Assembly: GCF_011947225.1 (NCBI RefSeq)
Contig: NZ_JAATVW010000001.1
Span: 62,001-126,000 of the forward strand
Direction: 5' to 3'
DNA: 64,000 nt
Origin: Planosporangium flavigriseum
GTDB taxonomy: Bacteria > Actinomycetota > Actinomycetes > Mycobacteriales > Micromonosporaceae
Shown: one piece after another, positions 10,064-44,495 of the stretch
Layout: every line of letters starts with the position of its first letter
How positions within the stretch are numbered: position 1 is the stretch's first letter
Made by a program: the position numbers and the translations under genes
Notes under the pieces: model-generated
The model's input: the letters and a program-made list of their open reading frames with translations, nothing else
Databases searched by the model: none
What the model was told of the DNA's origin: nothing

Positions 10064-10075
10064 GGCACCTCCGAC

Positions 10076-10247: not shown

Positions 10248-11102
10248 CTAGGGAAGCGACGCCTGGACCCGGCCGTCCACCACGCGGGTACGCAACAGCG
10301 GCTGGTCGGTCGCGGCCGGTCCGCGCACGACAACACCGTCGGCCAGCCGGAACGTACTGCCGTGCCAGGGGCATACCACGCAGTCGGCGCCGCCCACGCG
10401 GGTCAGCTCGCCGTCGCCGAGCGGCCCGGTGTGGTGGCCGCACCGTTCGATCATCACGGTCACCCCGTCGCCGAGACGCGTGACAAGCACCGGCACGTCG
10501 CCGATGCGGGCCACCATCGGCTTTCCCTCGGTCAGCTCGGCGTGCTCGCACAGGTCGTGCCAGCCCTCGGGGATCTGCCGCAGAAACGGCTCGGCCTGGT
10601 TGACCCCGGCGGCCTGCCGGAAGCTCAGATGGCCGCCGACGTAGGCGCCGAGGCTCGCCGTGCCCAGTCCGGCGTACGCCAGCCACCTCCCGCGTCGGCC
10701 GTTGCCGGTCAGCCGCGCGGCCAGGGAGCCGGCGTACAGGCCGAGCGCGATCGCGTTGGCGGCCGCGTGCACGAGGCCGACGCGGCGCTGCTTGCGCGAC
10801 AGCGACGCCCAGTCGGTCAATCCGGCGACGGCGGCCGGCACAGCGGTTGCGGTTCCGACGCCCACCAGTACCGTCGCCGCTTTTCCGGTGCCGGGAAGCG
10901 CGTCCAGCACGGCGGCGCTCATCCAGGCGCCGACGGGCAGTTGGACGGCCGCGGGGTGCAGCGGGTGGCCGAGCCACACGCCGTGCAGCGCGTCCCGTAC
11001 CCGATCCGGCAGCACGGCCCGCACCCCGCGCCGCAGCGGATCGCCTACCCGGTCCAGTGCGCCGGCCATTTCCACCCGGTCCAGCAGCTTCCGCATCGCC
11101 AT
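10248..11102 (-). CDS. Rieske [2Fe-2S] protein with DUF2231 membrane domain
   Basis: 284 aa from ATG 11102 (AAAGG 7 bp upstream); ATG 11096 is an alternative. The N-terminal 170 residues are a DUF2231 membrane domain: LGHPLHPAAVQLPVGAW, then four hydrophobic segments. The C-terminal domain has both Rieske boxes, CGHHTGPL and CPWHGSTF, which supply two Cys and two His to a 2Fe-2S cluster. It is probably a membrane electron carrier. No oxygenase or cytochrome partner is adjacent. A hairpin overlaps its ribosome-binding region. Confidence 0.9.
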   Translation of the reverse strand: MAMRKLLDRVEMAGALDRVGDPLRRGVRAVLPDRVRDALHGVWLGHPLHPAAVQLPVGAWMSAAVLDALPGTGKAATVLVGVGTATAVPAAVAGLTDWASLSRKQRRVGLVHAAANAIALGLYAGSLAARLTGNGRRGRWLAYAGLGTASLGAYVGGHLSFRQAAGVNQAEPFLRQIPEGWHDLCEHAELTEGKPMVARIGDVPVLVTRLGDGVTVMIERCGHHTGPLGDGELTRVGGADCVVCPWHGSTFRLADGVVVRGPAATDQPLLRTRVVDGRVQASLP

Positions 11103-25437: not shown

Positions 25438-26046
25438 TTACGGCCGGTACGCCCCTCGATCGCCCGACGAACTGATCACCCAGAGGACCTCCGACCGGCC
25501 CGGGCTGACGTTGACGACCCGGTGCGGGGTGTCACTGCAGAAAACGACCGAGTCGCCGGCTTCCAGGAGAAAGAGGTCCGAGGCGAGTTCCACCTTCACC
25601 GCGCCGGACGTGACGAGCAGCAACTCTTCGGAATCGCCGGGTGCGTATCGCGTCTCGCCGGTCGATCCGTTGGGCTCCAGTTTGATGGCGAACACCTCGA
25701 GACGCCGCAGCGGCTGCGGCGTCAGGAGGAACTTCATGGCGCTGCTGCCGAATGGCAACGTCGGCCGCCAGGACTCCCGCATGACACGTACGGCTGCGGT
25801 GGCGTTGGCGCTGAAGGCGTCCGCGAGAGTGATCCCCACAGCGCTCGTGATGAGGCGCAGCGAGGCGACACTCGCCTGGCTCAACCCCCGCTCGAATTGA
25901 CTCAGGAAGCTCTCCGACAGGCCAGTGGCCGCGGACAGCTGCCGCAGCGTCATCCGCCGGCGCATCCGGGCCGCGCGGATGGCGGTGCCGACCGAAGCCG
26001 GACCCACCGCCTCATCGGTGGCAATGGAGACCCCGTCATGCGCCAT
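25438..26046 (-). CDS. XRE-family regulator with C-terminal cupin
   Basis: 202 aa. The helix-turn-helix (AARMRRRMTLRQLSAATGLSESFLSQFERGLSQASVASLRLI) is followed by a cupin domain (EELLLVTSGAVKVEL, LEAGDSVVFCSDTPHRVVNVS). Proteins of this architecture sense a small ligand through the cupin. It is the last gene of the catabolic island, 9 bp after the acyl-CoA dehydrogenase stop, so it is co-transcribed and may provide feedback control in addition to the PucR protein at the island's head. Confidence 0.9.
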   Translation of the reverse strand: MAHDGVSIATDEAVGPASVGTAIRAARMRRRMTLRQLSAATGLSESFLSQFERGLSQASVASLRLITSAVGITLADAFSANATAAVRVMRESWRPTLPFGSSAMKFLLTPQPLRRLEVFAIKLEPNGSTGETRYAPGDSEELLLVTSGAVKVELASDLFLLEAGDSVVFCSDTPHRVVNVSPGRSEVLWVISSSGDRGAYRP

Positions 26047-26055
26047 AGCGCGCCG

Positions 26056-27696
26056 CTATCTGGGCGCATTGTCGACGAGGCCTCGCGCGATGACGCGCAG
26101 GGCGAGCGTCTCGTCGGCACCCTCGAAGAGCGAGAGGACGCGAGCGTCGAGGAAGAACCTCGATACCGGGTACTCCTCGGCGTAGCCGTATCCGCCGTGC
26201 ATCTGCTGTGCCTCCCGGGTCACCCACTCGGCCGCCCGGCAACTGAGGGACTTGACCATCGAGGCTTCGAGCTGTCCTCCGCCCGACGCGATCAGGCGGG
26301 CGCATGCGTACGTGTACGCCTGGCATCCGGCGAGGAGGAAGGCCATCCTGGCGAGCTTCACCTTCGTCAACTGGTAGTCGGCCAGGGCCGCGCCGAACAC
26401 GTGACGCTCCCGGGCGTAACCGGCGGCCGCCTCGAACGCCGCCCGCATGAGGCCGACCGCGCGCGCCGCCGTCTGCATCCGGCCGTTCGCAAAGGCCTTC
26501 ATCTGCAGGTAGAAGCCCTTGCCGAGCCCCGCCTCGCCGCCGATCAGGTTCGCCGCCGGCACGACGAAGTCTTCGAAACTGATCTCGAAACTGTGCATGC
26601 CCCGGTAGCCGATCGTCCTGATCGCCCGCGCCTCGATGCGTCCCCCGTGCTCGCCCTCGTAGCTCCAGGAATGTCCCGGGAAGGGCGGCTTCTCGATCAC
26701 GAACAGCGACAGTCCCCGGTGCTTGTCCTCGCGTGTGCCCGTTCGAGCCAGCAGCAGAAGCAGGTCGGCTCTACCGCTGAACGTCGACCACGTCTTGACC
26801 CCGCTGATCCGGTAGTAGTCGCCGTCGCGCGTCGCCCGGACCGTCAGATTGGCGACGTCGGAGCCGTAGTCCGGCTCCGTCACCGCCACGGCCACCATGA
26901 GGTCCCCGGCGGCGACCCCGGGCAGCCACCGGGCCGCCTGTTCCTTGACACCGCCGGTGAGGACGGCGGTGGCCAGGATCTCCGGTCGCGTGATGAACGG
27001 GCCGGCCAGTCCCATGGAGCCACGGGTGATCTCCTCGGTGGCCACGAGCATGGCGAGCAGATCGTCTTCGCTGTAGCCGGACGGCCCGCCCGACGCGGAA
27101 CCCCCGTACTCGGCCGGGATACCCATGCCGAACAGACCCAGGCGGGAGAACTCGCGGATGATCTCCTCGGGGATGTCGGTGTCCCGAGAGTGCACCTCTT
27201 CCGCCAGCGGGGCCACCTTCGTCGTGGCGAAGTCACGGAAGACGCGTCGCGCCAGGTCGAGTTCTTCCGGTAACGGAACCGACGGCAGCCCGACCGTTGC
27301 GACCTGCTCGCCTACCGCGCTGAGCAGCTGAGGTGACCGAGCCCGGGCGAGCGCCTCCGCCAGCTCTCCGCTGTGCCACGGAAGTCCGGTAGCGCTCCAG
27401 TGGCGCTCCCGCCCCTGCAGCATGGCGCCGATCTCCGCAACGACGTGCCCGGTGAACGCCGCCGTCAACATCTCCTGCAGCGGACCGGAGTCGCCCCAGG
27501 GGAGCATCGCCTCGGCCGCCCCGACGAGACACGCCGCCGCGGCCAGGTCGTACGCGTACGCCTGTTCGCGGTCCAGCGCCGCCAGATCGACGCGCCCGTC
27601 CGTTCCCCGGCAGTCGTTCGCCAGCCGCAGGATCCCCTGATCCACGACCGCCCGGGCGGCCGCGATCAACGCTCGTGTGTGCTCCATCGTCACCAT
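26056..27696 (-). CDS. Acyl-CoA dehydrogenase with N-terminal extension (methylsuccinyl-CoA dehydrogenase-like)
   Basis: 546 aa from ATG 27696, which shares its A with the preceding stop (TGATG); AGGAG lies five bases upstream. Residues about 160-546 are a normal FAD-dependent acyl-CoA dehydrogenase: VAVTEPDYGSDVANLTVRA, GVKTWSTFSGRADLLLLLART, QQMHGGYGYAEEYPVSRFFLDARVLSLFEGADE. The first 160 residues are an extra helical domain. This length and extension are what is described for (2S)-methylsuccinyl-CoA dehydrogenase of the ethylmalonyl-CoA pathway. With CoA-transferases beside it, a branched C5 acyl-CoA substrate is a reasonable inference. Related isovaleryl- or butyryl-type enzymes lack the extension. 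Confidence 0.8.
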   Translation of the reverse strand: MVTMEHTRALIAAARAVVDQGILRLANDCRGTDGRVDLAALDREQAYAYDLAAAACLVGAAEAMLPWGDSGPLQEMLTAAFTGHVVAEIGAMLQGRERHWSATGLPWHSGELAEALARARSPQLLSAVGEQVATVGLPSVPLPEELDLARRVFRDFATTKVAPLAEEVHSRDTDIPEEIIREFSRLGLFGMGIPAEYGGSASGGPSGYSEDDLLAMLVATEEITRGSMGLAGPFITRPEILATAVLTGGVKEQAARWLPGVAAGDLMVAVAVTEPDYGSDVANLTVRATRDGDYYRISGVKTWSTFSGRADLLLLLARTGTREDKHRGLSLFVIEKPPFPGHSWSYEGEHGGRIEARAIRTIGYRGMHSFEISFEDFVVPAANLIGGEAGLGKGFYLQMKAFANGRMQTAARAVGLMRAAFEAAAGYARERHVFGAALADYQLTKVKLARMAFLLAGCQAYTYACARLIASGGGQLEASMVKSLSCRAAEWVTREAQQMHGGYGYAEEYPVSRFFLDARVLSLFEGADETLALRVIARGLVDNAPR

Positions 27697-29744
27697 CACC
27701 TCTCCTGCCGCGTTGGCGACATCGCATGAAGGCCTGATCTGGCTGCCTTGGCCAGGCTGGCCGCCGGGTCTTCCATCGCCGCGACGTCTCCGGCGGTTTC
27801 GACCAGCGTGACGACCCGCGCGTCGGTGTCGAGCCCCTCGTCGGCCGCACCGGCGAGCACGAGGACGGGCAGTCCCCGCCGGAGCGACTCCCGTACGACA
27901 AGGCCGGGCGCCTTGCCCAGCAGCGAGGTCGCGTCGAACCGTCCCTCTCCGGTGACGACCAGGTCCGCCCAGTCCAGTTGCTCCGCCAGGCCCAGGCGTT
28001 CGGCGATCACGGACGCGCCATCCGACAGCACCGCCCCCGCCGCCGCGAGACCGCCGGCAAGGCCGCCAGCGGCGCCCGACCGCGGCAGATCCCACACGTC
28101 CACGCCGTACTTGGCCGACAACTCGTCCGCGATTCGCCGCAGCCGCCGGGTGAGCAGCGCTACCTGGCGGGCGTCGGCGCCCTTCTGCGGGCCGAAGACC
28201 CGTGCCGCGTCTTTGAACGGCGTCGCGACGTCGGTGATCACCCGAACCAGTCCCGGCCGGAAGGGGAGGTAGCCCGCCAGGGCCGCGAGCGCTCCCGCAC
28301 CGCCGTCCGTCGTCGCCGACCCGCCCATGCCCACGATGACCTCGTCGGCGCCGGCGTCGATAGCCTCCCGGATCAGCTCCCCGGTGCCGGCGCTCGTCGC
28401 CGCCCAGGCGTCGTTGGCGGCAGCCCCGCCGGCGACGACGAGACCGGAGGCCGCCGCCGACTCGAGGACGGCCAGACCGTCCACCAGCCGCCAGCCCGCC
28501 CGCACCGGCGTACCGAGTGGGCCCGTCACCACGGAGTACCGGTTCGGTCCGCCGAAGGCCTCGACGGTGCCCTCTCCCCCATCCGCCATCGGAAGCGTGC
28601 GCACCACCGCGCCCAGCCGCTCCGCCTCCGCCGCGATGACGTCGGCCGCCTCCCGCGACGTGAGCGTGCCCTTGAACTTGTCCGGCGCTAGGAGAACCCG
28701 CCACGGCGGCGACGACGGGTCCCCGGTAACCCCGCGACGGGCGAAGTCCTCGATCGCTTCGGCGCTGTACCCCAACTCGGCCAGTACCTCGCTGGTGTGC
28801 TCACCGAGCAACGGCGGCGGCGCCACGCGTACGGGCCACGACGGCGCGGCCGTGAACGGGCTCCGCAGTTGGGCGAGGTCCCCGACCGTCGGGTGGCGCA
28901 CCGGCACCGTGTGCGGGTTGGGCTCGGCGAACACCTCGGGGAGCGTGTTGACCGGGGCGCAGGCGACGCCGCTCGCGCGGAGCAGGGCCAGTGCCTCGTC
29001 GCGGGAGACGCCGGCCAGCTCCGACGCCACGTGCGGGCCGACGTCGGCGACGAGGAACGTACCGCCTCCACATGCGACGGCGCGCGACGCGTCGGAAGGC
29101 CGGCCCGCGAAGAGGTCGAGCTGGGCGAACATCTGCGCGCCGAGGAGGCTGACGTCGACGCTGCCGCCCATCCCGGAGCGCAGTCTGCGGTACAGGGCGG
29201 CCGTGATCCCGACCGCGGCGAGGCCACCACCCGCGAAGTCCGGCAGGCTCACCCCCATCCGGACCGGTGCCGCACCGTCGGCGAGTCCGGCCAGCATCGC
29301 GCCGCTGATCGCCTGGATGATCGGGTCGTTGGCCGGCTGGTCGGCGTACGGCCCGGTCTGGCCGAAGGCGGAGATGTGGCAGTAGAGCAGGTCGGAGTTG
29401 AGCCCCGCCACCTGCTCGTACCCCACGCCGAGGCGCTCGGCGGTACCGGGGCGCAGGTTGTGCACGAGCACGTCGGCCGTGCGGACCAGGCGGTGAACGA
29501 CCTCGCGCCCTTCGTCGGTCTTCAGGTCGAGCGCCAGGCTGCGCTTGTTCCGGTTGAAACCTAGGTAGATCGCGCTCTCGCCGCCGGCGAAGACGCTGCC
29601 CATGGTCCGGGCGATCTCGCCCCGCCCCGGTGGTTCGACCTTGATGACATTCGCGCCGAGATCCGCGAGCAGCATCGTGCACCAGGGACCGGCCACGAAG
29701 TGCGTAAGGTCCAGGACGGTGATGCCGGTGAACGGTGCCGTCAT
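27696..29744 (-). CDS. CaiB/BaiF CoA-transferase fused to glycerate kinase
   Basis: 682 aa. Residues 1-340 are a class III CoA-transferase: LDLTHFVAGPWCTMLLADLGA, FNRNKRSLALDLK and the catalytic Asp140 in ANDPIIQAISGAM. Residues 348-682 are a GarK/GlxK-type glycerate kinase: VLLAPDKFKGTLTSREAADVI, LPMADGGEGT, GMGGSATTDGG, LVVTGEGRFDATSLLGKAP. The joint is about eight residues (GDPSSPP) with no ATG or GTG in frame, so the kinase cannot start separately. The transferase part is about 50 residues shorter than the neighbouring full-length homologue, missing part of the small domain. It overlaps GH88 (ATGA) and the dehydrogenase (TGATG). I know of no characterised protein of this architecture. Confidence 0.85.
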   Translation of the reverse strand: MTAPFTGITVLDLTHFVAGPWCTMLLADLGANVIKVEPPGRGEIARTMGSVFAGGESAIYLGFNRNKRSLALDLKTDEGREVVHRLVRTADVLVHNLRPGTAERLGVGYEQVAGLNSDLLYCHISAFGQTGPYADQPANDPIIQAISGAMLAGLADGAAPVRMGVSLPDFAGGGLAAVGITAALYRRLRSGMGGSVDVSLLGAQMFAQLDLFAGRPSDASRAVACGGGTFLVADVGPHVASELAGVSRDEALALLRASGVACAPVNTLPEVFAEPNPHTVPVRHPTVGDLAQLRSPFTAAPSWPVRVAPPPLLGEHTSEVLAELGYSAEAIEDFARRGVTGDPSSPPWRVLLAPDKFKGTLTSREAADVIAAEAERLGAVVRTLPMADGGEGTVEAFGGPNRYSVVTGPLGTPVRAGWRLVDGLAVLESAAASGLVVAGGAAANDAWAATSAGTGELIREAIDAGADEVIVGMGGSATTDGGAGALAALAGYLPFRPGLVRVITDVATPFKDAARVFGPQKGADARQVALLTRRLRRIADELSAKYGVDVWDLPRSGAAGGLAGGLAAAGAVLSDGASVIAERLGLAEQLDWADLVVTGEGRFDATSLLGKAPGLVVRESLRRGLPVLVLAGAADEGLDTDARVVTLVETAGDVAAMEDPAASLAKAARSGLHAMSPTRQER

Positions 29745-30943
29745 ACCGTTCGCTTCTCCGGGCTCAAGGACAGCAGTCCCCAGTCGTCATGGAGCCGGCG
29801 GTAGAGCGCCTCGACGATCCAGTAGTTCCCGTACGGCATGACGTCCTCGAGTGGGAACCGCGAGATGCCCGCTCCGGCCTTCTCCGGGGGCAGCCGGCCC
29901 CAGCTGCTGTGCAGCAGGACGCCGCCCGGCGACAGGTAGTTCGCCAGCAGCTCGTCGACGATGGCCTCGCCGGCGGAGCGGGCCCAGGCCGCGGACTCGG
30001 GGTCCAGCCGCGCCAGCCGCAGCAACGCGTTGGCGGCGATGGTCGCGCTGCAGGAGTCCCGCGGGACGCCCGGCGCGGCGGGGTCGGCGAAGTCGTAGAA
30101 CGGGACGCTGTCGGCGGGCAGGTTCTCGACGTACCACCGGCAGACACGCCGTGCCACGTCGAGGAAGTGCGGGTCGCCGCTCGCCTCGTACACGTTGACG
30201 TAGTTGTGCAGGGCCCACGACTGCCCCCGCGCCCACGTCGACTCGTCGGAGTACCCCTGCATGTTCCACCGCCGGGCCGGCTCACCGGAGGCGAGGTCGA
30301 ACTCGATCGCCTGGTACGTGGATCCGTCCGGCCGGACGATCCCGTATCGCAGCAGGTTTGTGTTGTGGTCGACGGCGATCCGCGCCCCGCCCGGCCGGAA
30401 GCCGGCCGACCAGTAGAAGGGCAGCAGGTTGAGCCCCGTGTCGATCACCGCCCGGTTGACGCCGGGCACCTGGAAGAAGATCCCCAGTGGGGGGTCGAAG
30501 TTCTCCGCGTACCGGTCGACCGCGTCGAGCCCGGCCTCGACCAGCGCCGTGTCCTCCACGCAGCGGCTACCGAGGCAGACCGCGTAGAACAGGTCGCTGC
30601 CGGCGGCCGAGAACCCGGGTGGCCGCTGACGCAGGCGGTCGGCGACGGTACGCGTCAGCTTGCCGGCCGCCGCCGCGACCCTGTCGTCGCCGAAATGACG
30701 CGCCACGAGCCAGAGCCGGCCGGCGAGAAACCCGGTCCACTGGAACGTGGCCCACGCGTCCGGCCGGTACTCGGTGTCCAGCGTGTACCCGCCGGTGAGG
30801 TAGCTGAACTTCGGTACGGCGCCGGCAGGAGCCTGCTCCAGCAGGTCGAGTACGGGCTCGCAGCCGGAGCGCACCCGCTCCATGGCGCGACGTGCCGCAT
30901 CGACTCTCGCCATGTCCCGTTGGTCAACGGTCGCCTCTGCCAT
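29741..30943 (-). CDS. GH88 family unsaturated uronyl hydrolase
   Basis: 400 aa from ATG 30943 (AAAGGACGGG upstream); an in-frame ATG at 30997 lies in a repeat tract. (alpha/alpha)6-barrel hallmarks are visible: YLTGGYTLDTEYRPDAW, DTGLNLLPFYW with the catalytic Asp, ESTWARGQSWALHNYVNVY, RDSCSATIAANALLRLA and PYGNYWIVEALYR. GH88 enzymes hydrate the 4,5-double bond of unsaturated glucuronides or galacturonides left by lyases. No signal peptide is seen, so it acts in the cytoplasm. No polysaccharide lyase is nearby, making its role in this island unclear. Confidence 0.88.
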   Translation of the reverse strand: MAEATVDQRDMARVDAARRAMERVRSGCEPVLDLLEQAPAGAVPKFSYLTGGYTLDTEYRPDAWATFQWTGFLAGRLWLVARHFGDDRVAAAAGKLTRTVADRLRQRPPGFSAAGSDLFYAVCLGSRCVEDTALVEAGLDAVDRYAENFDPPLGIFFQVPGVNRAVIDTGLNLLPFYWSAGFRPGGARIAVDHNTNLLRYGIVRPDGSTYQAIEFDLASGEPARRWNMQGYSDESTWARGQSWALHNYVNVYEASGDPHFLDVARRVCRWYVENLPADSVPFYDFADPAAPGVPRDSCSATIAANALLRLARLDPESAAWARSAGEAIVDELLANYLSPGGVLLHSSWGRLPPEKAGAGISRFPLEDVMPYGNYWIVEALYRRLHDDWGLLSLSPEKRTV

Positions 30944-30962
30944 TCCCGTCCTTTTCTCGGTT

Positions 30963-31020
30963 GTTCCGCGATGCCCGCGCCGTTCCGCGACGCCCACGCC
31001 GTTCCGCGACGCCCGCTCAC
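30963..31020 (-). repeat. Three tandem 19-bp repeats
   Basis: GTTCCGCGACGCCCACGCC recurs three times head to tail with one to three mismatches, in the gap between the CaiB and GH88 genes. It lies upstream of the GH88 ribosome site. Simple slippage expansion is the likely origin. Confidence 0.75.
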
Positions 31021-31022
31021 GC

Positions 31023-32243
31023 TCACTCGACCGAGTCGCGCGCCGCGGCGGCGACCCCGGACGTCAACAGCCACGCGGTCAGCTCCGGCGAGAACCCGCA
31101 CTCGGCCAGTACGTCCACTGTGTGCTCACCGAGCAGCGGCGGAGCCGAGCGCACCGGCATCGCCGCTCCGTCGACGCGGATCGGGAGGCCGATGGTGTCG
31201 AGGTCACCCGCCGCGGGATGGCGCATCCGCTGGACGAGTTCGTTGTGGATCACCTGCGGGTCCGACAGCGCCTCACCCAGGTCGTTCACCGGACCGCACG
31301 GCACGCCGTGCGCGTGCATCCGCTCCAGCCACTCGTCCCGGTCGCGCTCCAGCAGGATCGGTTCCAGCAACGCGACCAGCTCCTCCCGGCGCCTCGTCCG
31401 TTCGACGTTCGTGGCGAAGTCCGGATGGTCGGCGAGTTCCGGTCGCCCGATCGCGAGGCACAGCTTCTGCCAGAACTTGTCGTTGATCGCCGCTATGTAC
31501 AGGTACCGGTCGCCCTTGCAGCGGTAGGCCTGGTAGGGCGCGAACCGCGGGTGCGCGCTGCCCAGGCGGGGCTGCTCCTCCCGGTTGATCAGGTACTCCT
31601 GGGCCCGCGGGCCGAGCGCGAAGACCTCCACGTCCAGCAGGTTCAGGTCCAGATGCGCGCCCCGGCCGGTACGCGTGCGGCCGACCACCGCGGCGAGGAT
31701 CGCGAACGCGGCCATCATGCCCGCGCCGAAGTCCGGGACGCTGACGCCCTGGCGCGCCGGGGGGCCGTCGGCGTCGCCGGTGATGCTCATGACGCCCGAC
31801 ATCGCCTGGATGATCGGATCGTTGCCGGGCATGTCCACGTACGGGCCGCTCTGGCCGAACGCGGAGATGGACGCGTACACGATGCCGGGGTTGACGGCAG
31901 CGGCCGTGTCGTAGTCGACGCCCAGCTCGGCGGTCTTTCCCGGCCGCAGGTTCTCGACCAGGATGTCGGCCGTCCCGACCAGCCGCTGGAGCACCTCGCG
32001 CGCCTCGGGGCGTTTGAGGTCGAGCGCGATGCTGCGCTTGTTGCGGTTGAGGGCGAGGAACACGGCGCTCTCCCCGCCGGCGTAGACGCTGCCCGCCTGC
32101 CGGGACATGTCTCCGCTACCGGGCCGCTCGACCTTCACGACGTCGGCGCCCAGGTCGGCGAGGACCATCGTGCACCAGGGCCCCGCCGCCAGGTGCGACA
32201 GGTCCAGGACGCGCAGCCCGGACAGCGGCAGGTTCGCGCTCAC
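31023..32243 (-). CDS. CaiB/BaiF CoA-transferase
   Basis: 406 aa, normal length for class III CoA-transferases. LDLSHLAAGPWCTMVLADLGADVVKVE, LNRNKRSIALDLK, the catalytic Asp142 in GNDPIIQAMSG, and HPRFAPYQAYRCKGDRYLYIAAINDKFWQ are present. It moves CoA between a donor such as succinyl-CoA and a carboxylic acid. Its ATG overlaps the aldolase stop. It is a close relative of the fused transferase downstream, so the two may act on successive acids or as a pair. Confidence 0.92.
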   Translation of the reverse strand: MSANLPLSGLRVLDLSHLAAGPWCTMVLADLGADVVKVERPGSGDMSRQAGSVYAGGESAVFLALNRNKRSIALDLKRPEAREVLQRLVGTADILVENLRPGKTAELGVDYDTAAAVNPGIVYASISAFGQSGPYVDMPGNDPIIQAMSGVMSITGDADGPPARQGVSVPDFGAGMMAAFAILAAVVGRTRTGRGAHLDLNLLDVEVFALGPRAQEYLINREEQPRLGSAHPRFAPYQAYRCKGDRYLYIAAINDKFWQKLCLAIGRPELADHPDFATNVERTRRREELVALLEPILLERDRDEWLERMHAHGVPCGPVNDLGEALSDPQVIHNELVQRMRHPAAGDLDTIGLPIRVDGAAMPVRSAPPLLGEHTVDVLAECGFSPELTAWLLTSGVAAAARDSVE

Positions 32244-32956
32244 GAAAAGTCTCCTCGCGTACGGGATTCAGCGGCTGCGACCGCCGGGACGTCGTGAATC
32301 CGCAGGGAGCGGTCGATCCATTCGCGGTCCCAGGTGCCTTCGGCGATCGCGCGGCTCTCGGCCTCCTCCGCGACGCGTTTCGCCTCGGCCGCCGCGATCA
32401 CGTCCTCGGCTCGGTGCCGCGGGATGACCGCGATCCCGCACTCGTCGCCGACCACGAGGTCGCCGTCCTCGATGACCACTCCGGCCAGGGAGACCGGGCA
32501 GCGCAGGTCACCGGGGCCGTCCTTGTAAGGCCCCAGCTGGCTGACGCCGACGGCGAAGACCGGCGGCGCGGCCGCCTCGAGGTCCGAGCGGTCCCGAACG
32601 GCGCCGTCGACGACGAGCGCGGCCAGGCCCTTCGTTCGCGCGTACTGACCCATCAGGCCCCCCAGGGTGGCGCGCTCCATCGTCCCCCCGGCCGCGACCA
32701 CGAGAACCTCGCCGGGGCGGGCGACGTCAAGGGCCTTGTGGACGACGAGGTTGTCCCCTGGTCGGGTCCGGACGGTCAAGGCCGGACCGGCCACCACCTG
32801 ACCGGCGGCGAGGCCGGTGATCGGGAGGATGCCGGGCGCCCCCGCCCACCGGCCGAAGACGTCGGAGATCAACGATGTCGACAGCCGCTCCGCGCGCTCG
32901 ATGAGGCCGCGCGGGGGTAACGGGGTGGCTGGGTGGACATAGCAGTCAGCAGGCAT
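32240..32956 (-). CDS. RraA/HMG-aldolase family protein
   Basis: 238 aa. The motif GGTMERATLGGLMGQYARTKGLAALVVDGAVRDRSDLE contains the Gly-rich pyruvate-binding loop and the Arg-Asp pair that bind metal and pyruvate in 4-hydroxy-4-methyl-2-oxoglutarate aldolases. VIEDGDLVVGDECGIAVIP is also typical. Such enzymes split 4-hydroxy-2-oxo acids to pyruvate and an oxo acid, or decarboxylate oxaloacetate. RNase-E inhibition (true RraA) is unlikely in this setting. It lies 34 bp after the hydroxyacid dehydrogenase stop and overlaps the CoA-transferase. Confidence 0.87.
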   Translation of the reverse strand: MPADCYVHPATPLPPRGLIERAERLSTSLISDVFGRWAGAPGILPITGLAAGQVVAGPALTVRTRPGDNLVVHKALDVARPGEVLVVAAGGTMERATLGGLMGQYARTKGLAALVVDGAVRDRSDLEAAAPPVFAVGVSQLGPYKDGPGDLRCPVSLAGVVIEDGDLVVGDECGIAVIPRHRAEDVIAAAEAKRVAEEAESRAIAEGTWDREWIDRSLRIHDVPAVAAAESRTRGDFS

Positions 32957-32990
32957 GCGCCTTCCTCACGCTCGCGTCAGAAAACTCTCG

Positions 32991-33956
32991 TCAGGAAACC
33001 GGATTGATGGGTGGGTCGCCGGCGAGCACGGACAGGACGTTCGCCACCGCCACCTCGCTCATCCGGCGGCGCGTCGACTCGGTCGCGCTGCCCACATGTG
33101 GCATCAGGACCACCCGTTCCCGCAGGTCGAGCAGCTCGCTCTCCACTTCGGGTTCACGCTCGAAGACGTCCAGCCCCGCTCCCGCGATCTCACCCGCCCG
33201 GAGCGCCCGGGCCAGTGCCCGCTCGTCGACGAGTGGGCCACGGGCGGTGTTCACCAGTACCGCGGTCGGTTTCATCGCCCGGAGCGCCGCGGCGGAGATG
33301 AGGTGCCGGGTCTCCGGTGTGAGCGGACAGTGCAGGCTCACGAAGTCCGACTGGGCGAGCAGCTCCGGCAGGCCCACGCGCCGGGCGCCGATCTCCGCGT
33401 CGTCCGCCGGATGCCCGGGTGACCGCCCCACGTACCGCACCGGCATGCCGAAGCCCAGGTGCGCACGTCGCGCGACCGCCCTGCCGATGCGGCCCATGCC
33501 GACGATGCCGATCGTCCTCCCGGAGACGTCCAGACCCATCGGGTGCTGCATCAGCTGCCACCCGGTGTACTCGCCGCGGCGCAGCATCGCGTCGCCCTCG
33601 GGTATCCGGCGGGCGACGGCCAGCATGAGCGCGAGAGTGAGATCGGCGGTCGCGTCCGTGAGGACGTCGGGGGTGTTGGTGACCGCGACTCCGGCACCGC
33701 TGGCCGCCGCCACGTCGATGTTGTCGTAACCGGTTGCCACGTTGGCCACCACGCGAAGCTGCGGGTTCGCCGTGAACACGGTCGCGTCGACCCGGTCGGT
33801 CAGGTGCGTGATGACCGCGGCGGCGCCGGCGCAGAGGTCGGCGAGCTCCTGCCCCCCGACGGGCCGGGCCTGGGCTGACTCGACGACGTCGAGGCCGGCG
33901 GAGCGCAGCTTCTCGCTGGCCTCCCGGTGAATGGGCTGCGTGACGACGACTCGCAT
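32991..33956 (-). CDS. D-2-hydroxyacid dehydrogenase (glyoxylate/hydroxypyruvate reductase-like)
   Basis: 321 aa. The NAD(P) motif GIVGMGRIGRAVARRA and the catalytic Arg (NTARGPLVDERAL), Glu (GAGLDVFEREP) and His (LMPHVGSAT) are all present. NVATGYDNIDVAAAS and the overall pattern are closest to glyoxylate/hydroxypyruvate reductases. Together with the glycerate kinase domain downstream it could take hydroxypyruvate to phosphoglycerate. It starts 3 bp after the aldehyde dehydrogenase stop. Confidence 0.9.
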   Translation of the reverse strand: MRVVVTQPIHREASEKLRSAGLDVVESAQARPVGGQELADLCAGAAAVITHLTDRVDATVFTANPQLRVVANVATGYDNIDVAAASGAGVAVTNTPDVLTDATADLTLALMLAVARRIPEGDAMLRRGEYTGWQLMQHPMGLDVSGRTIGIVGMGRIGRAVARRAHLGFGMPVRYVGRSPGHPADDAEIGARRVGLPELLAQSDFVSLHCPLTPETRHLISAAALRAMKPTAVLVNTARGPLVDERALARALRAGEIAGAGLDVFEREPEVESELLDLRERVVLMPHVGSATESTRRRMSEVAVANVLSVLAGDPPINPVS

Positions 33957-33959
33957 GCG

Positions 33960-35420
33960 TCAGATCACCGTGGGGCTGAGGTAGACGGTCTTCGTGTTCG
34001 TGAAGAAGTCCTGGTTGGTGGAGCCGATGGAGAACGCCCCGGAGCCGGAGTCCTTCACGCCACCGAACGGCACATGCGGTTGACTGATCGTCCCGTGGTT
34101 CACGTGCACCATGCCGGCCTGCACCCCCTGGGTGTACCGCATGGCCACGTCCAGACGCTCGCTGAAGACGACGGATGCGAGGCCGTAGTCGCAGTCGTTC
34201 GCGATCGAGATGGCTTCATCCACATCGGAGACCCGGAGCACGCTGATGACGGGGCCGAAGATCTCCTCGCGCGCCACGACCATGTCCCGGGTGACCCGGT
34301 CGAGGACGGTGGGCTCGACGTACAGTCCGTCGGGCAGGCTGCGCCGCGCCGTCGTCCGTACCGCCCCCTCCTCGAGGCCGGTCTCGATGTACCCGCTCAC
34401 CCGCTCGAACTGGGCCTTGTTGATGAGGGGCCCGACCTGGGTGTCGGGGTCGACTCCCGGGCCCACCCGGTAGGACGAGTACAGGCCGCTCAGGAGCTCG
34501 ACGACGTCGTCAGCGATCTCGTCCTGCACCAGGACCCGGCTCACGGCGGTGCAGCGCTGGCCGGTGGCCTGGATCGCGGCTGTCGCGATGTGGTCCACCG
34601 CGCGGCGCAGGTCGGCGGCGCTGTGTACGTACGCGGCGTTCTTTCCGCCGAGCTCGAGCTGCACCTTGCCCAAACGCCGCGCCACCGTCTCGGCGACGGT
34701 GCGCCCGACGCCCGTGGACCCGGTGAACGAGACGCCGTTGACCCTTCGATCCGCGATGAGCCGGGAGCCGACGCTGCTCCCCCGTCCACACACGACGTTG
34801 AGGACGCCCTCGGGTACCCCGGCGTCGCGCAGCAGCGTGGCCAGGGCCAGCGCCGTCAACGGCGTCTCGAGGGCCGGCTTCAGCACCACCGTGTTCCCCG
34901 CGACCAGCGCCGGCGCAATCTTGCGGATGGGCGCGACCGCGGGGAAGTTCCAGGGGGTGATGGCGGCGACCACACCGAGTGGCTCGCGCAGCGTGTAGAC
35001 CAGCTGGCCGGCCACGCGGCTGGGGATGGTGTCGCCCAGGATCCGCGTCCCCTCCCCGGCCGTGTAGTCCAGCTCGCCCCGGGCGCGTCCCAGCTCCGCG
35101 TAGGACTCGCTCAGCGGCTTGCCCATCTCGCGGGTCATGAGGAGGGCGAGCTCGTCGGCGTTCTCCGCGATCAACTCGCGCCACCGGCTCAACAGGTCGC
35201 CTCGCTCGGGCGCCGGGCGAGCCGCCCACTCGGCCGCCGCTGCCGCGGCAGCCGCGACCGCCGCGTCGACGTCTTCGTCCGTCGAGTCGGGAACGGCACC
35301 GACGACGCGGTCCTCCGCTGCCGGGTCCCGGCAGAGCACCTCGTCCCCCTTGCTGGCGAGCCACGTGTTGCCGATGAAGTTGGCCAGTTCTTTTCGTTCG
35401 GTTACTTCCCGGACGCTCAT
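33960..35420 (-). CDS. NAD(P)-dependent aldehyde dehydrogenase
   Basis: 486 aa, full length. Catalytic Cys290 (ATGQRCTAVSR) and Glu256 (LELGGKN) are in place, with TPWNFP and GSTGVGR for nucleotide binding and FGGVKDSGSG near the end. The pattern resembles succinate-semialdehyde, vanillin or benzaldehyde dehydrogenases. It probably oxidises the aldehyde produced by the class III aminotransferase of the island. It starts 10 bp after the ABC ATPase stop. Confidence 0.92.
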   Translation of the reverse strand: MSVREVTERKELANFIGNTWLASKGDEVLCRDPAAEDRVVGAVPDSTDEDVDAAVAAAAAAAAEWAARPAPERGDLLSRWRELIAENADELALLMTREMGKPLSESYAELGRARGELDYTAGEGTRILGDTIPSRVAGQLVYTLREPLGVVAAITPWNFPAVAPIRKIAPALVAGNTVVLKPALETPLTALALATLLRDAGVPEGVLNVVCGRGSSVGSRLIADRRVNGVSFTGSTGVGRTVAETVARRLGKVQLELGGKNAAYVHSAADLRRAVDHIATAAIQATGQRCTAVSRVLVQDEIADDVVELLSGLYSSYRVGPGVDPDTQVGPLINKAQFERVSGYIETGLEEGAVRTTARRSLPDGLYVEPTVLDRVTRDMVVAREEIFGPVISVLRVSDVDEAISIANDCDYGLASVVFSERLDVAMRYTQGVQAGMVHVNHGTISQPHVPFGGVKDSGSGAFSIGSTNQDFFTNTKTVYLSPTVI

Positions 35421-35430
35421 ATTTCGCTCC

Positions 35431-36192
35431 TCACAAGATCCTGCTCAGGAAGGCACGGGTGCGCTCCTCCCGAGGTTGCGCCAGCACCTCTCGCGCCGGC
35501 CCCGACTCCACGATCTGACCCGCGTCCATGAAGACCACCCGGTCTGCCACGTCGCGCGCGAAGCTCAACTCGTGGGTGGCGATGATCATCGTCATCCCGT
35601 GCCGTGCGAGGGTGCGGATGACGTCGAGTACCTCGCCGACGAGCTCGGGGTCGAGCGCACTGGTCGGCTCGTCGAAGAGCATCACCTTGGGGAGCATGGC
35701 CAGCGCACGCGCGATGGCGACCCGCTGCTGCTGCCCGCCGGACATCTCGGCCGGGTAGGAGTTGTGGAACGCCGCCAGCCCGACCTGTGCGAGCAGTTTT
35801 TCCGCACGCCGAACGGCCTCCTCGCGGGACTCGCGGCGAGCGAGCCGGGGCGCCAGCGCGACGTTTTCGAGCGCCGTCTTGTGCGCGAACAGGTTGAAGC
35901 TCTGGAAGACCATGCCGATGTCGGTGCGCTGCTTGGACAGCTGCGCCGGGCGCATCGGCGTCAGTCCACTCTTCTTGCGGACCACGCCCACCAGCTCGCC
36001 GTTCACGGTGACGGTTCCGCCGTTCGGGCGCTCCAGGTGGTTGATGCAGCGCAGCAGCGTGCTCTTGCCCGATCCGGAGGGTCCGATCAGGCAGACGACC
36101 TCGCCGGCCTGGACGGTCAGATCCAGACCGTGCAGGACCTCCGTGTCGCCGAACCGCTTCCGGATCTTCTTCGCGATCACCATCTCGGTCAT
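35431..36192 (-). CDS. Polar amino-acid-type ABC transporter ATPase
   Basis: 253 aa from ATG 36192, overlapping the permease stop. Walker A GPSGSGKST, Q-loop VFQSFNLFAHKTALENV, signature MSGGQQQRVAIARAL, Walker B VMLFDEPTSALD and switch His (ATHELSFARD) are complete, as in GlnQ/HisP. It energises the importer with the adjacent permease and binding protein. Import of an amino acid, opine or related amine is likely from the family. Confidence 0.93.
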   Translation of the reverse strand: MTEMVIAKKIRKRFGDTEVLHGLDLTVQAGEVVCLIGPSGSGKSTLLRCINHLERPNGGTVTVNGELVGVVRKKSGLTPMRPAQLSKQRTDIGMVFQSFNLFAHKTALENVALAPRLARRESREEAVRRAEKLLAQVGLAAFHNSYPAEMSGGQQQRVAIARALAMLPKVMLFDEPTSALDPELVGEVLDVIRTLARHGMTMIIATHELSFARDVADRVVFMDAGQIVESGPAREVLAQPREERTRAFLSRIL

Positions 36193-37205
36193 CGATTTCC
36201 TCCCGACTCGCCGCCGAGCATCCGTTCGCCTTCGGGTGGGCCCTCCAGCTGGTACGCCGTCGCCCGATCCCCGGCTCGATCGCTCACCTTCGGATTGCGG
36301 AATCCCTTGCCGAAGTGCTTTTCGATGTAGTGCTGCACGATGCTCAGGATCGTCGTCAGGATGAGGTACCAGATGCTCGCGACGATCAGCATCGGAATCG
36401 TCTGGAAAGTACGCGCGTAAATCAGTTCGGCGGTGTAGAGCAACTCGGGAACGGCCAGGACGCTGACCATCGAGGAGTACTTCAACATACCGATGATCTC
36501 GTTGAAGCCCGGGGGAATGATCACGCGCATGGCCTGCGGCATGATCACCGTTCGCAGCGTCTGTGTCCGGCTCAGCCCGAGCGCGCTGGCCGCCTCCACC
36601 TGACCGTGGTGAATCGACAGGATCCCGGCGCGGACGACCTCCGAGAAGTAGGCGCCCGCATTGAGTCCGAGGCCGAGGATCGCCGCGGTGAAGGGCGTGA
36701 TCACCGAGTTCGAGTCCACACTGAAGAACGTCGGGCCCCCGAACGGCACCCCCACGCTGATGGACCGGTACAGCGCGCCCAGGTTGAACCAGAAGAGCAG
36801 CTGAACCAGCAGGGGCGTGCCCCGGAAGAACCAGACGAACGCGCGGCTGACGGCTGCCGGCAGGTAGGCGCCCGATAGGTTCATGACGGCCAGCAGCGCC
36901 CCCAACGCGTACCCCACGACGGCACTGATGGCCGTCAGTTCGAGAGTACGCGCCAGGCCCGTCAGGATCGGCCGGGAGAACATGTAGTCGCCGACGACGT
37001 CCCATTGGAAGTTACTGTTCCGGGCGACAGAGATAGCCATCTGAATGCCGATGAGGACGAGTACGGCGCTCACGGCCCAGTGGGCTGGCGTCTGTGCCCG
37101 AAGGAGCCTCCGGACTCGCCCAGGGGGCGTTATGACGTCGTCATCGTCGACCGGCGAGACACGTTCGGACCGATCAGCTTCGGGATTCGTCAGTTTTGGT
37201 TGCAT
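36189..37205 (-). CDS. Amino-acid ABC transporter permease
   Basis: 338 aa, His/Glu/Gln/Arg/opine family. After a 50-residue acidic and basic N-terminal tail come about six helices with LTGLARTLELTAISAVVGYALGALLAV and the EAA loop EAASALGLSRTQTLRTVIMPQAMR, which docks on the ATPase. The C-terminal 50-residue cytoplasmic tail is unusual in length. Only one permease gene is present, so it probably forms a homodimer. Confidence 0.92.
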   Translation of the reverse strand: MQPKLTNPEADRSERVSPVDDDDVITPPGRVRRLLRAQTPAHWAVSAVLVLIGIQMAISVARNSNFQWDVVGDYMFSRPILTGLARTLELTAISAVVGYALGALLAVMNLSGAYLPAAVSRAFVWFFRGTPLLVQLLFWFNLGALYRSISVGVPFGGPTFFSVDSNSVITPFTAAILGLGLNAGAYFSEVVRAGILSIHHGQVEAASALGLSRTQTLRTVIMPQAMRVIIPPGFNEIIGMLKYSSMVSVLAVPELLYTAELIYARTFQTIPMLIVASIWYLILTTILSIVQHYIEKHFGKGFRNPKVSDRAGDRATAYQLEGPPEGERMLGGESGGNR

Positions 37206-37305
37206 CGGACAGCTGCCCCTTCGCGGCTAGAGACGATCCAGATTGAGCGGCCGGTGCTCCACGGACCTCCCTGGAGCACCGGCTCGCACCCGGCGAATAT
37301 CGCCC

Positions 37306-38238
37306 CTAGGGTTTGATCTTTCCGGCGTTGATCGTGGCTGCCGGGATGGCCGCGTCGGCGATGCCCCACTTCTCGAGGATCTTCTTGTACTCGCCGCTGT
37401 CGATCAGGCTCTGCAGCGCGGCGTGCAGCGCCTTGGCGAGCTCGAGATTGTCCTTGGCCACCTGGATGCCGATGGGGAGCTGGAGGTACTTGGGCCCGAC
37501 GATCTCGATCTTCTGGCCCTCCTTGACCCGGTACGTCTGCCCGAACGTGCTGTCCAGCGTCGCGTCCACCCGGCCAGAGGTCAGCGCGAGGGCCGACTGG
37601 TCGGCGCTCTTGAAGGCGCTCCAGTCGATCTTCGGCTTGCCCGCCTTCACGCACTCGGCGGACGCCGTATCCAGCAGATCCTGGACGACCGGCGACCCCG
37701 CCAGCGCTCCGACCCTCTTGCCACAGGCGGTGTCGAGTCCCTGGATGTTCGCGGGGTTGCCGGGGATGACGGTCAGCCTGGACGACTGGAACGCGTAGTC
37801 CACGAGGGTGACGACGGCCTGGTTCTTGTCGGTGTCCGTGGTGCCGCCGAGTGCCATCGGCACCCGAGCGCTCTGAAGTTCAGGGATCAAGGAGGCGAAG
37901 GACGTGTCCTTGTAGTTGAACTTGGTGCCGAGGGCCCCCGCTATCGCGTTCAGGAGGTCGACGTGGAAGCCGATGATCTTGCGGTCCTTGTCCATGTAGC
38001 TCATCGGCGGGTAGTCGGTGACGATAGCCACGTCGATGCTGTCTTTGCCGCGGAGGTCGGCCGGCAGCTTGGAGTTGAGGGCGCCGCCACCCGCCGACGA
38101 TCCGGCGGACGCGGTGTCCGACGAACCACCGGAGTTGCTCTCCGTCGATGAGGCGCAGGCGCTCGCCAGAGCGGCCGTGACGGCTAAGAAGGCTGCGCAG
38201 AAGATTGCCCGACGAGGTCGGGTTGCGGAAGTGGTCAC
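37306..38238 (-). CDS. Amino-acid-type ABC transporter solute-binding lipoprotein
   Basis: 310 aa from GTG 38238 (AAGGAG five bases upstream). A basic start, a hydrophobic run and ALASACASS form a loose lipobox, followed by a Ser/Gly-rich linker. The SBP_bac_3 domain shows VAIVTDYPPMSYMDKDRKIIGFHVDLLNAIAGALG and the hinge/lobe motifs ending YKKILEKWGI. It should capture the substrate of the island outside the membrane. The 175-bp gap before it may hold an internal promoter. Confidence 0.9.
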   Translation of the reverse strand: MTTSATRPRRAIFCAAFLAVTAALASACASSTESNSGGSSDTASAGSSAGGGALNSKLPADLRGKDSIDVAIVTDYPPMSYMDKDRKIIGFHVDLLNAIAGALGTKFNYKDTSFASLIPELQSARVPMALGGTTDTDKNQAVVTLVDYAFQSSRLTVIPGNPANIQGLDTACGKRVGALAGSPVVQDLLDTASAECVKAGKPKIDWSAFKSADQSALALTSGRVDATLDSTFGQTYRVKEGQKIEIVGPKYLQLPIGIQVAKDNLELAKALHAALQSLIDSGEYKKILEKWGIADAAIPAATINAGKIKP

Positions 38239-38413
38239 ATGAACTCCTTGACGAAGAGTGCGTTGGCGATGGGACGTAAGCGGTTCTCCACCTGGTCTCG
38301 TCATTGCTTGCGGGAGAACGCGAGGCGCCAGCGCGGCGCCAGCTATTCGGGGTAAGCGGCCAACGACGTTCCCGCGCCGCTCAAGCGACGGCTCCGTCAG
38401 GCCCGGGGGATCG

Positions 38414-40024
38414 TCAGGTCCGCGCTAGTTCGTCATTCCAGAGTTCACCTCCGTCCGCCCTTCCCCCGACAACGGTGAGAACGCTGGTCACGCTCTCCAG
38501 TTCGGACTCTCTAACCGAGAACGGGTCCTTGTTCAGGACGGCGAGGTCCGCGAGCTTGCCCGGCACGAGGGATCCACGGTCGTGCTCGAGGAAGGTGGCC
38601 ACCGCGGCGTCGACGGTGAAGGAACGCAGCGCCTCGGCGACGCTTATCCGCTGGCCCGCGTCGATCTCCGTGCCGTGCTGGTTCCTTCGCTCGACCATCC
38701 GCTGCATCGTGAACCAGGGATTGCACGCCCGTGGCTGAGCGCCTGCCGTATCCGAGTTGCCGGGCGGCCGGGTGCCCGCCTCCAGCAATGTGCGCAGCCC
38801 GTACTTCTGGACGCCCGGCGGGATCCGCCGGTCCGGGTCGTCCGGCTCGGCGTACAGGAAACTGGGGTTCGGCGCGGGAATGCCGCCGCACCGCACCAGC
38901 CGCTGGAGGCTTCGCGCGTCGTAGATCTCGTTGCCGAAGTGCTCGATCCTGGTGCGGTGGTCGACCCCGGGGTTCGCCCGGACGGCCTGCTCGATCGCAC
39001 TGATCGTCATCTCCTGGGCGAGATCGCCGATGGCGTGCACCCACACCTGGGTGCCGGCGGCCACGGCCGCCGTAATCTCGCGCGCGAGCCCCTGCGGCGT
39101 TCTCGTCGGCAGGCCCCACTGGTCGCCCCGCGAGCCCAGGCCCGTCGAGCGGAAGGCGCCGTCCCGTCCGCCGTCGACGAAGATCTTGATGGCGGACAGC
39201 CGGAGCATCGGGCCGCCGAACCCCGTACGCAGCCCCGTGCGTACGAACTCGGGCGTCCGGATGAGCGGCTGGTGCCCTGGCTCGGCGGTGAACGCCAGGC
39301 CGATGCGGGGCAGCACCGCGGGAGAGCCGGCAAGCCGGGTGTAGGCGCCGACCCCTGCCGCACTGGCGGCGATGTCGTGGATCGTCGTCACGCCGTGCTG
39401 GAGGAACAGCTCCCGCGCCGTCTCGGCGATCTCGTCCGCGAGGGCGTCCCCCATGGGCGAGGGCCAGTTCAGCAGATCCCAGCCCTCTTCGATCAGTCCG
39501 GTCGGATGACCGCCCGCACCGTGGTGGATCCGCACGCCCGGTGGCGCCACCGTCGTCCGGTCGATGCCGGCGAGCTCCAGGGCGCACGAGTTCAACTGGA
39601 ACTTGTGCATCGTCCACCGGACGGCGACCGGGTTGTCCGGCGCGGTCTTGTCGAGCTCAGCCCGGTCCGGGAAGTCCTGACCGAAAGTGCCCTGCATGAC
39701 GATCCACGTGCCGGGCGCGGAGCCGGCCACCTTTTCCCGTACCTGGCCGAGGACCTCGGCGCGGGAGAGACCGCGTACGTCCGTCCAGCGGTGCCTGGCG
39801 TACGCGGCCAACTCCAGATGGGTGTGCGCGTCGATCAGGCCGGGCACGACGGTGCGCCCACCGAGGTCGATGACCCTCGTGTCGTCGTGGGCGGTGCGCA
39901 GCAGGTCGCCGTCACTGCCGACGGCCAGAATCCGGTCTCCACGGATGGCGATCGCCGAGGCGGCAGGGGTGTCGTCTGCCATCGTGACGATCCGACCGTT
40001 CCGCAGCACCACGTCGGCGCGCAT
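38414..40024 (-). CDS. YtcJ-like amidohydrolase
   Basis: 536 aa from ATG 40024, sharing its first base with the monooxygenase stop (TGATG). The metal site is VVPGLIDAHTHLELAAY; VWVHAIGDLAQEMTI, RIEHFGNEI and a late GSLVPGKLADLAVLNKDPF complete the amidohydrolase_3 pattern. These enzymes hydrolyse amides, carbamates or cyclic ureides with bound metal. No signal peptide is present. It may release an amine for the aminotransferase. Confidence 0.88.
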   Translation of the reverse strand: MRADVVLRNGRIVTMADDTPAASAIAIRGDRILAVGSDGDLLRTAHDDTRVIDLGGRTVVPGLIDAHTHLELAAYARHRWTDVRGLSRAEVLGQVREKVAGSAPGTWIVMQGTFGQDFPDRAELDKTAPDNPVAVRWTMHKFQLNSCALELAGIDRTTVAPPGVRIHHGAGGHPTGLIEEGWDLLNWPSPMGDALADEIAETARELFLQHGVTTIHDIAASAAGVGAYTRLAGSPAVLPRIGLAFTAEPGHQPLIRTPEFVRTGLRTGFGGPMLRLSAIKIFVDGGRDGAFRSTGLGSRGDQWGLPTRTPQGLAREITAAVAAGTQVWVHAIGDLAQEMTISAIEQAVRANPGVDHRTRIEHFGNEIYDARSLQRLVRCGGIPAPNPSFLYAEPDDPDRRIPPGVQKYGLRTLLEAGTRPPGNSDTAGAQPRACNPWFTMQRMVERRNQHGTEIDAGQRISVAEALRSFTVDAAVATFLEHDRGSLVPGKLADLAVLNKDPFSVRESELESVTSVLTVVGGRADGGELWNDELART

Positions 40025-41175
40025 CAGTCGGTTTCTGGGCCCGTGATCGCGTTCGACCGGGGAGCGGGAGCGTACGTGCCGCCCCGCCACCAGAACTCCC
40101 AGGCCTGGGAGGTCACCGGAACGACCGAGAGAAAGTGGAAAAACTTCGCGCGCGCGCCGAGCAGCGGCGCCGGCCAGTAGTAGCCGGTGTGGCTGTACAG
40201 CGTGGTGAGCTTCTGGACCCGGTCGGCAGCCGGCCGCACCCGCCTTTCCCAGTCGAGCAGCGCGCTGGGCACGTCCCGGGATTCGGCGACCGTCCGCGCC
40301 AGCTCCCACGCCGCGACCATGGCGAGCCCGGCGCCCTGGCCGAGGTTCGGCGGCTGGGCGTGCGCGGCATCGCCGATCATCGCCACGCGCCCGTCAACCC
40401 AACGCTTGCACACGACGTGCTCGTGCACGTGGTGGACCCCGGCATCGTCGGTGATGCGGTCGAACACGTGCCCCAGCTGGGGGAAGAACGTGCTCCAGTA
40501 CTCGGTGTCGACCGGCAGCCGGCGGAGTTGGCGGTCCTGCTCAGGGCCGATCATGAAGACGTACGTTTGGTCAGGCGAGCAGGGGGCGACGCCGATCCGC
40601 TTGTTACCGGCCCAGTACTCGGTCCCCATCGGCTCTTCCTGCCGGGGGATCAGCAGGCGCGTCGCCCCGTCCTCCATGGTCCGGTAGGACTTGGTCAGGC
40701 CGAGCGACTCCCGCACCCTCGACCGCACACCGTCCGCGCCGATGACAAGGTCGGCGCGCACTTGGGAACCATCGGCGAAGACCAGGACGCCCTCGGGCTT
40801 CGCCGCGACCACCATCTTGTCGGTGACCAGTTCGACGCCGGCGTCGACCGCCGCCTCCCGCAGACTGTTGTGCAGTTCCCGACGGAGAACCGTGATCATT
40901 CTTTCCTCGGTGAACCGCCGGTTGACGATGACTTCCCCGCGCTCGTCAACGATGCGGGCCGCCTTCAGGGGGACGCCGTTCGCGATCACCTTGTCCAGGA
41001 CACCCAACTGCTCCAGGACGGGGAGGCTGTTCTCCTTGAGGTAGATGCCCGCACCGAACTCGCGCGGATCCTTGCTCCGCTCGAACACGGTCACCTTCAC
41101 CCCGCGACGTGCCAGGGCCAAGCCCGCGGTGAGCCCGGCTATACCGGCACCAGCCACTACCGCCTCAGTCGTCAT
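40024..41175 (-). CDS. FAD-dependent monooxygenase (aromatic hydroxylase-like)
   Basis: 383 aa from ATG 41175 (GGGAG upstream). The three group A flavin motifs are present: VVAGAGIAGLTAGLALARRG, LVIGADGVRSRVRESLG (DG motif) and GRVAMIGDAAHAQPPNLGQGAGLAM (GD motif). It resembles salicylate and 3-hydroxybenzoate hydroxylases using NAD(P)H and O2. This is the main hint that the island's substrate has an aromatic or heteroaromatic ring. It overlaps the amidohydrolase start by one base. Confidence 0.9.
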   Translation of the reverse strand: MTTEAVVAGAGIAGLTAGLALARRGVKVTVFERSKDPREFGAGIYLKENSLPVLEQLGVLDKVIANGVPLKAARIVDERGEVIVNRRFTEERMITVLRRELHNSLREAAVDAGVELVTDKMVVAAKPEGVLVFADGSQVRADLVIGADGVRSRVRESLGLTKSYRTMEDGATRLLIPRQEEPMGTEYWAGNKRIGVAPCSPDQTYVFMIGPEQDRQLRRLPVDTEYWSTFFPQLGHVFDRITDDAGVHHVHEHVVCKRWVDGRVAMIGDAAHAQPPNLGQGAGLAMVAAWELARTVAESRDVPSALLDWERRVRPAADRVQKLTTLYSHTGYYWPAPLLGARAKFFHFLSVVPVTSQAWEFWWRGGTYAPAPRSNAITGPETD

Positions 41176-41242
41176 TGCGCTCCCACTCCTGCCGTCCACT
41201 GTGCTTACTTGGTTTGATCGGGCCCACTACCGTCATCACGCG

Positions 41243-42532: not shown

Positions 42533-42650
42533 TACTTCCTCCTTGGTGCCGTTTTCTGAGTGGCCACCAGTTTGCGCGAGCACCAAGGAATCCATATTTG
42601 GAGATTGTCAAAAGAGTCGCGGCCGCGATCGTGCGATGCGAGAAGCTGAC

Positions 42651-44225: not shown

Positions 44226-44495
44226 GACCGCTCCCGGGTGGACATGGGGACCATATGGAGATGCCGTCCATGGCGAGTTCCAGCCGAGGGTCGACTGCGA
44301 CACCCGGACCGCCAAGGCAAGCGCGCACCCAGGTCACCGCATACGCAGGCCAGGCCGCCGCCGCACCCGACCACCGGTGGCGGAACTTTAAAGATCAACG
44401 ATTACTGCGCGCAAGACCCGGGCGACGTCGGGCCGCTAGCCTTCTCACCGTTAGAGCCGCGCCGAGTTCACGCTCGGTGACGTAGAAATGAACCG

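Follow-up and report, generated by a model that had tools for sequence, protein, structure and literature searches.

The window analysed here, a stretch of 64,000 nucleotides from Planosporangium flavigriseum (contig NZ_JAATVW010000001.1), carries on its minus strand an open reading frame of 682 codons (27696..29744; ATG at 29744, stop codon at 27696-27698) which, by Pfam and in an AlphaFold model, joins a short family III CoA-transferase to a GK-I glycerate kinase. The plus strand opposite is closed. Pfam places CoA_transf_3 (E 7e-82; best stretch residues 6-207, followed by a second stretch) ahead of Gly_kinase (E 4e-77, beginning at residue 350), and the two are separated by an eight-residue linker, GDPSSPPW (residues 341-348; 28701..28724). 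Read in frame, the codons leading into the joint are GGG GTT ACC GGG GAC CCG TCG TCG CCG CCG TGG, and those leading out of it are CGG GTT CTC CTA GCG CCG GAC AAG; no ATG, GTG, or TTG stands among them. The closest in-frame start-like codon on the 5' side is a TTG within the C-terminal part of the CoA-transferase, some 25 codons before the first arginine of the kinase. A separately initiated kinase was considered and rejected on both sides, as the joint itself offers no start, the upstream TTG would add an extension of ~25 residues, and the downstream GTG already sits past the KFKGT motif. When modeled by AlphaFold as a monomer, the whole fused chain gives a mean pLDDT of 93 and a pTM of 0.75, with lower pLDDT at the linker, a part of the model not to be over-read given that the N-terminal ~38 residues of stand-alone kinases came out misplaced in the structure alignment. 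Foldseek matches the first half to SUGCT, FRC, YfdW, and BbsEF, and the second to the GK-I structures 3cwc and 1to6.

The fused frame belongs to an apparent 15-gene run on the minus strand (25438-44315), which takes in a PucR-type regulator, a class III aminotransferase, an FAD monooxygenase, an amidohydrolase, and an ABC transporter of the polar amino acid type, and then catabolic genes; several relatives have a tripartite tricarboxylate transporter in place of the ABC transporter. At the downstream end, an acyl-CoA dehydrogenase (26056..27696; Pfam) begins on the last base of the fused frame, and an HTH-cupin regulator (25438..26046; Pfam) closes the operon. The dehydrogenase carries a ~110-residue N-terminal extension ahead of its first Pfam domain, common to the Pseudonocardia loci L031 and L032. 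On the upstream side, a protein resembling GH88 unsaturated glucuronyl hydrolases (29741..30997) overlaps the fused frame by 4 nt; it is recognized by phmmer (3wux/1vd5, E 1e-23) and has no Pfam or NCBIfam match. Beyond it lie a full-length family III CoA-transferase (31023..32243), an RraA-like aldolase family protein (32240..32956; Pfam), a D-2-hydroxyacid dehydrogenase of the glyoxylate/hydroxypyruvate reductase-like kind (32991..33956), and an aldehyde dehydrogenase closest to the α-ketoglutaric semialdehyde dehydrogenase models, albeit below cut-off (33960..35420), the last two assigned from profile matches. The other joints around the fused frame are likewise overlaps of 1-4 nt. The GH88-like gene also stands between a long and a short CoA-transferase in L031, L032, L033, L036, L047, L053, and L058, and it is near an acyl-CoA dehydrogenase in every such relative, odd company for a glycosidase. 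As it was found in no other genome among 355 of the host family, the gene cluster was probably acquired horizontally.

The CoA-transferase half (residues 1-340; 28725..29744) scores 275.8 bits against PF02515, for which the gathering cut-off is 23.3. Its Asp169, in the motif GVSLPDF (codon at 29238..29240), aligns to the catalytic aspartate of solved homologues, is the equivalent of FRC Asp169, and is invariant in the family alignment. With FRC, YfdE/YfdW, and SUGCT, all of family III, it has in common the fold, the catalytic aspartate, and the N-terminal large-domain sequence, its best PDB match being SUGCT (9br6/9br7), and all the specificity equivalog models of family III fall far below cut-off. 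Unlike those enzymes, it has a halved small domain and a fused kinase. Counted between the LLxAQ and PVNTL motifs, the small domain spans 55 residues as opposed to 107 in the neighboring full-length paralogue, so that 52 are missing and the small domain between the two large-domain parts is incomplete. The original prediction had described just such a protein, with about 50 small-domain residues lacking, a short linker, no start codon at the joint, both catalytic signatures intact, and a full kinase, and all of this is borne out, "full" being understood as complete for a compact clade of kinases (see below).

Is this truncation a consequence of the fusion? That explanation was ruled out by comparison with unfused orthologues, of which there are two each in Pseudonocardia, Saccharopolyspora, and Serinicoccus and one each in Brevibacterium and Jiangella. 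Taken together these retain 97, 95, 81, 76, 76, 38, 22, and 22 small-domain residues, some being far more eroded than the fused protein, so the small domain is eroding independently of any fusion. An incomplete small domain common to unfused orthologues weakens the view of this protein as a canonical stand-alone member of the family, not its homology to it. Nor is the suggestion that the transferase half acquired a new role upon fusion supported, as its unfused orthologues are also eroded and a full-length sister CoA-transferase is encoded nearby. The two Saccharopolyspora proteins (L036 9959-10975 and L038 2162-3106), with 22 small-domain residues left, keep the catalytic aspartate.

Such erosion, down to 22 residues in Saccharopolyspora, could also be read as decay, with the transferase half reduced to a non-catalytic passenger or structural scaffold and only the kinase of consequence; moreover, the short clade has the longer branches of the two in the CoA-transferase tree. 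We nonetheless consider this decidedly unlikely, because the catalytic aspartate lies within RMGVSLPDF or RMAVSLPDF in all nine short proteins despite identities of only ~50-60%, and because the long and short proteins are retained together as a pair.

It is this pairing that suggests what the short protein most likely is. The long and short CoA-transferases form sister clades (support 100/99) apart from the 12 other CoA-transferases in the tree, and each of the window's two proteins is sister to Pseudonocardia within its own clade. The gene order long CoA-transferase, GH88-like protein, short CoA-transferase recurs in seven relatives in addition to the window; in an eighth (L038), the contig begins beyond the point where the long gene would be expected. 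Two homologous genes are thus kept together in one operon, and since the full-length sister is found upstream of the short one wherever the contig reaches far enough (window plus seven relatives), the most likely role for the short protein is that of a subunit in a heteromeric family III CoA-transferase, as judged from gene context and phylogeny. Both subunits keep the catalytic aspartate, and so the short one could instead act as a homodimer.

A related arrangement is known for BbsEF, the succinyl-CoA:(R)-benzylsuccinate CoA-transferase (9fn0), in which, here too, two family III proteins are encoded together and an acyl-CoA dehydrogenase is next in the pathway, the order there being CoA-transferase, acyl-CoA dehydrogenase, and hydratase (PMC10818641). 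By analogy with BbsEF, the two-subunit enzyme may have arisen by an old duplication. On the other hand, neither BbsE nor BbsF is shortened or fused, their full-length chains having 405-408 residues, whereas the short chain in the window is truncated and fused, and its heteromeric state is a prediction. The closer parallels are the unfused short-transferase operons of Pseudonocardia, Brevibacterium, Saccharopolyspora, Serinicoccus, and Jiangella, which likewise combine the long CoA-transferase, the GH88-like protein, the short CoA-transferase, and the acyl-CoA dehydrogenase, with RraA in several; the short transferase gene is near RraA in Pseudonocardia, Brevibacterium, and Saccharopolyspora. 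Unlike that of the window, the short CoA-transferase of those operons ends with its own stop codon, and the flanking DNA retrieved for these loci (up to 10 kb) contains no GK-I kinase of the present type.

The kinase half (residues 349-682; 27699..28700) is complete, as seen by Pfam, alignment, and tree. It scores 260 bits against PF02595 (cut-off 23.3) and 212.5 against TIGR00045 (curated cut-off 168.45), and it contains APDKFKGT, P-ADGGEG, GGSATTDGG, PQKGA, GAAGGL, TGEG, and GK. The motifs that more than 93% of the kinase homologues share are all kept except for a single alanine, here a serine in LTSREAAD. While conserved motifs are common to this kinase and the GK-I enzymes GarK and GlxK (PF02595, TIGR00045), it belongs to a compact actinobacterial clade of ~330 aa, shorter than the ~375 aa of the GarK/GlxK type, and unlike them it has an N-terminal fusion. 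The genome encodes a second, conventional GK-I enzyme at 480 kb of contig C1. The closest relative of the fused kinase is that of Nocardioides sp. PD653-B2 (L034; support 97/87), which adjoins a D-2-hydroxyacid dehydrogenase, an RraA-like protein, and an aldehyde dehydrogenase, the very trio standing upstream in the window's operon. Given this placement of the sister kinase, the operon appears to be a mosaic: two modules seem to have come together, the kinase being drawn from another one than the transferase, and the fusion lies where they meet. The Nocardioides locus itself (3329-11014) presents an Ldh_2-type dehydrogenase, a hydroxyacid dehydrogenase, a GntR regulator, RraA, an alcohol dehydrogenase, an aldehyde dehydrogenase, and this closest kinase in a row, possibly an undescribed sugar-acid pathway.

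A domain-architecture search for the CoA-transferase/glycerate kinase pair returned the host genome only among the best 80 of 470 candidate stretches in GTDB 220. No second fusion was found in 301 family and 395 class genomes, in 22 genomes of the Jiangella family, or in plasmids, and a literature search found nothing relevant on such a fusion, on a link between GH88 and CoA-transferases, or on small-domain loss. The protein is a new combination of known parts, unique within what was searched.

How the joint arose appears to turn on a single base. In the TGG codon of Trp348 (28701..28703), one G decides between the fused frame and a separate kinase started by GTG. Removal of one G yields GTG CGG GTT CTC CTA GCG CCG, that is, M-RVLLAP(DKFKG), which is the start point of most homologues, and it turns the transferase frame into PPCGFS-stop, with a TAG four codons on (28688..28690) that is also the end of an alternative-frame ORF (28688..29230) in the ORF list. 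Because a one-base deletion restores this GTG/TAG overlap, and overlaps are normal in the operon, we read the fused frame as a former overlapping gene pair that has become continuous, most simply through the insertion of a single base, and hold this view to be, on balance, probably correct. Only 1.6% of the 5439 codon boundaries in the operon give a start and a stop within six codons after a one-base deletion, which favors this origin; a chance match at that rate is, all the same, not decisive. No relative was found in which the two genes are neighbors without being fused, so the supposed ancestor of the fusion is not seen.

Two readings of the join are then left: a fusion of very recent date, or an error of one base in the assembly, by which a spurious G would have merged two overlapping genes, the kinase starting at GTG and the transferase ending at TAG. 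The textbook gene pair restored by one base, with its start at the homologue offset and its stop four codons later (1.6% expected), speaks for an error, as do the draft state of the assembly (85 contigs) and the absence of the fusion from every other genome searched (best 80 of 470 stretches in GTDB 220, 301 family and 395 class genomes, 22 Jiangella-family genomes, and plasmids). Comparison of the same contig with a same-genus genome, on the other hand, reveals no genuine frameshift in 146 orthologues (170 kb), which sets an upper bound of about 2e-5 per base on the indel rate; the insertion site is a GG rather than a long homopolymer; and a random indel would rarely hit an overlap of two genes and also be in the phase that fuses them. 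We therefore regard an assembly error as a real but rather unlikely explanation. A frameshift-prone assembly was set aside, the eight first-pass candidates all being antisense or N-terminal shadow ORFs, and the one candidate of a stricter pass again a shadow extension.

Supposing that the protein is real, do its halves act together? The original prediction held that the fusion implies CoA activation and glycerate phosphorylation serving one pathway. The shared pathway is plausible from gene context, as both halves are encoded in one tight operon with an RraA-type aldolase, a D-2-hydroxyacid dehydrogenase, and an aldehyde dehydrogenase; the fusion itself adds little to the argument. A stronger version would have a selected bifunctional enzyme, coupling CoA transfer to glycerate phosphorylation by channeling or regulation. 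The catalytic signatures kept in both halves agree with this, as does an operon encoding enzymes able to link the two reactions. It is nonetheless highly improbable, since no fused relative that selection might have preserved was found among the best 80 of 470 stretches in GTDB 220 or in the family, class, and Jiangella-family genomes and plasmids searched, no pathway that we can draw puts the two reactions one directly after the other, and the pTM of 0.75 with lower linker pLDDT gives no sign of a fixed interface.

What can be drawn, with each step taken from protein families, is the following. The substrate would be taken up by the ABC transporter of the polar amino acid type, as suggested by gene context. 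The transferase half would pair with the product of 31023..32243, the long subunit supplying the complete small domain, and, with an acyl-CoA as donor, the pair would load CoA onto a carboxylate, which the neighboring acyl-CoA dehydrogenase might then desaturate. Cleavage of the RraA type followed by reduction by the hydroxypyruvate/glyoxylate reductase-like dehydrogenase could lead to D-glycerate, to be phosphorylated by the kinase half, as if unfused, to 2-phosphoglycerate. The tether most likely would hold both halves at equal dose and be otherwise neutral; channeling is not claimed. The relationship of the GH88-like protein to unsaturated glucuronyl hydrolases (E 1e-23) suggests, speculatively, an enol-ether intermediate. 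Put together, a real bifunctional protein would operate in an undescribed catabolic route, in which a carboxylic acid is activated by a heteromeric CoA-transferase, one subunit of which has little small domain left, and is turned into an enol ether by the acyl-CoA dehydrogenase; the GH88-like protein would then hydrate and cleave this ether in the manner of unsaturated glucuronyl hydrolases, and a C3 fragment would reach 2-phosphoglycerate via the tethered kinase. This full scheme we consider doubtful.

If the fusion is real, the host possesses a CoA-transferase/glycerate kinase architecture seen in no other genome searched (GTDB 220, best 80 of 470 stretches, and the family, class, and Jiangella-family genomes and plasmids), one with a simple one-base origin and possibly caught soon after the event; should it prove an assembly error, it neatly illustrates how a single base can create a false multi-domain enzyme. 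The more interesting and more useful lead is the conserved family III CoA-transferase pair, one subunit of which has repeatedly lost its small domain. This long/short pair, bound up in scattered actinobacteria with the GH88-like protein and with an acyl-CoA dehydrogenase, makes both a specific heteromer and a catabolic pathway testable.
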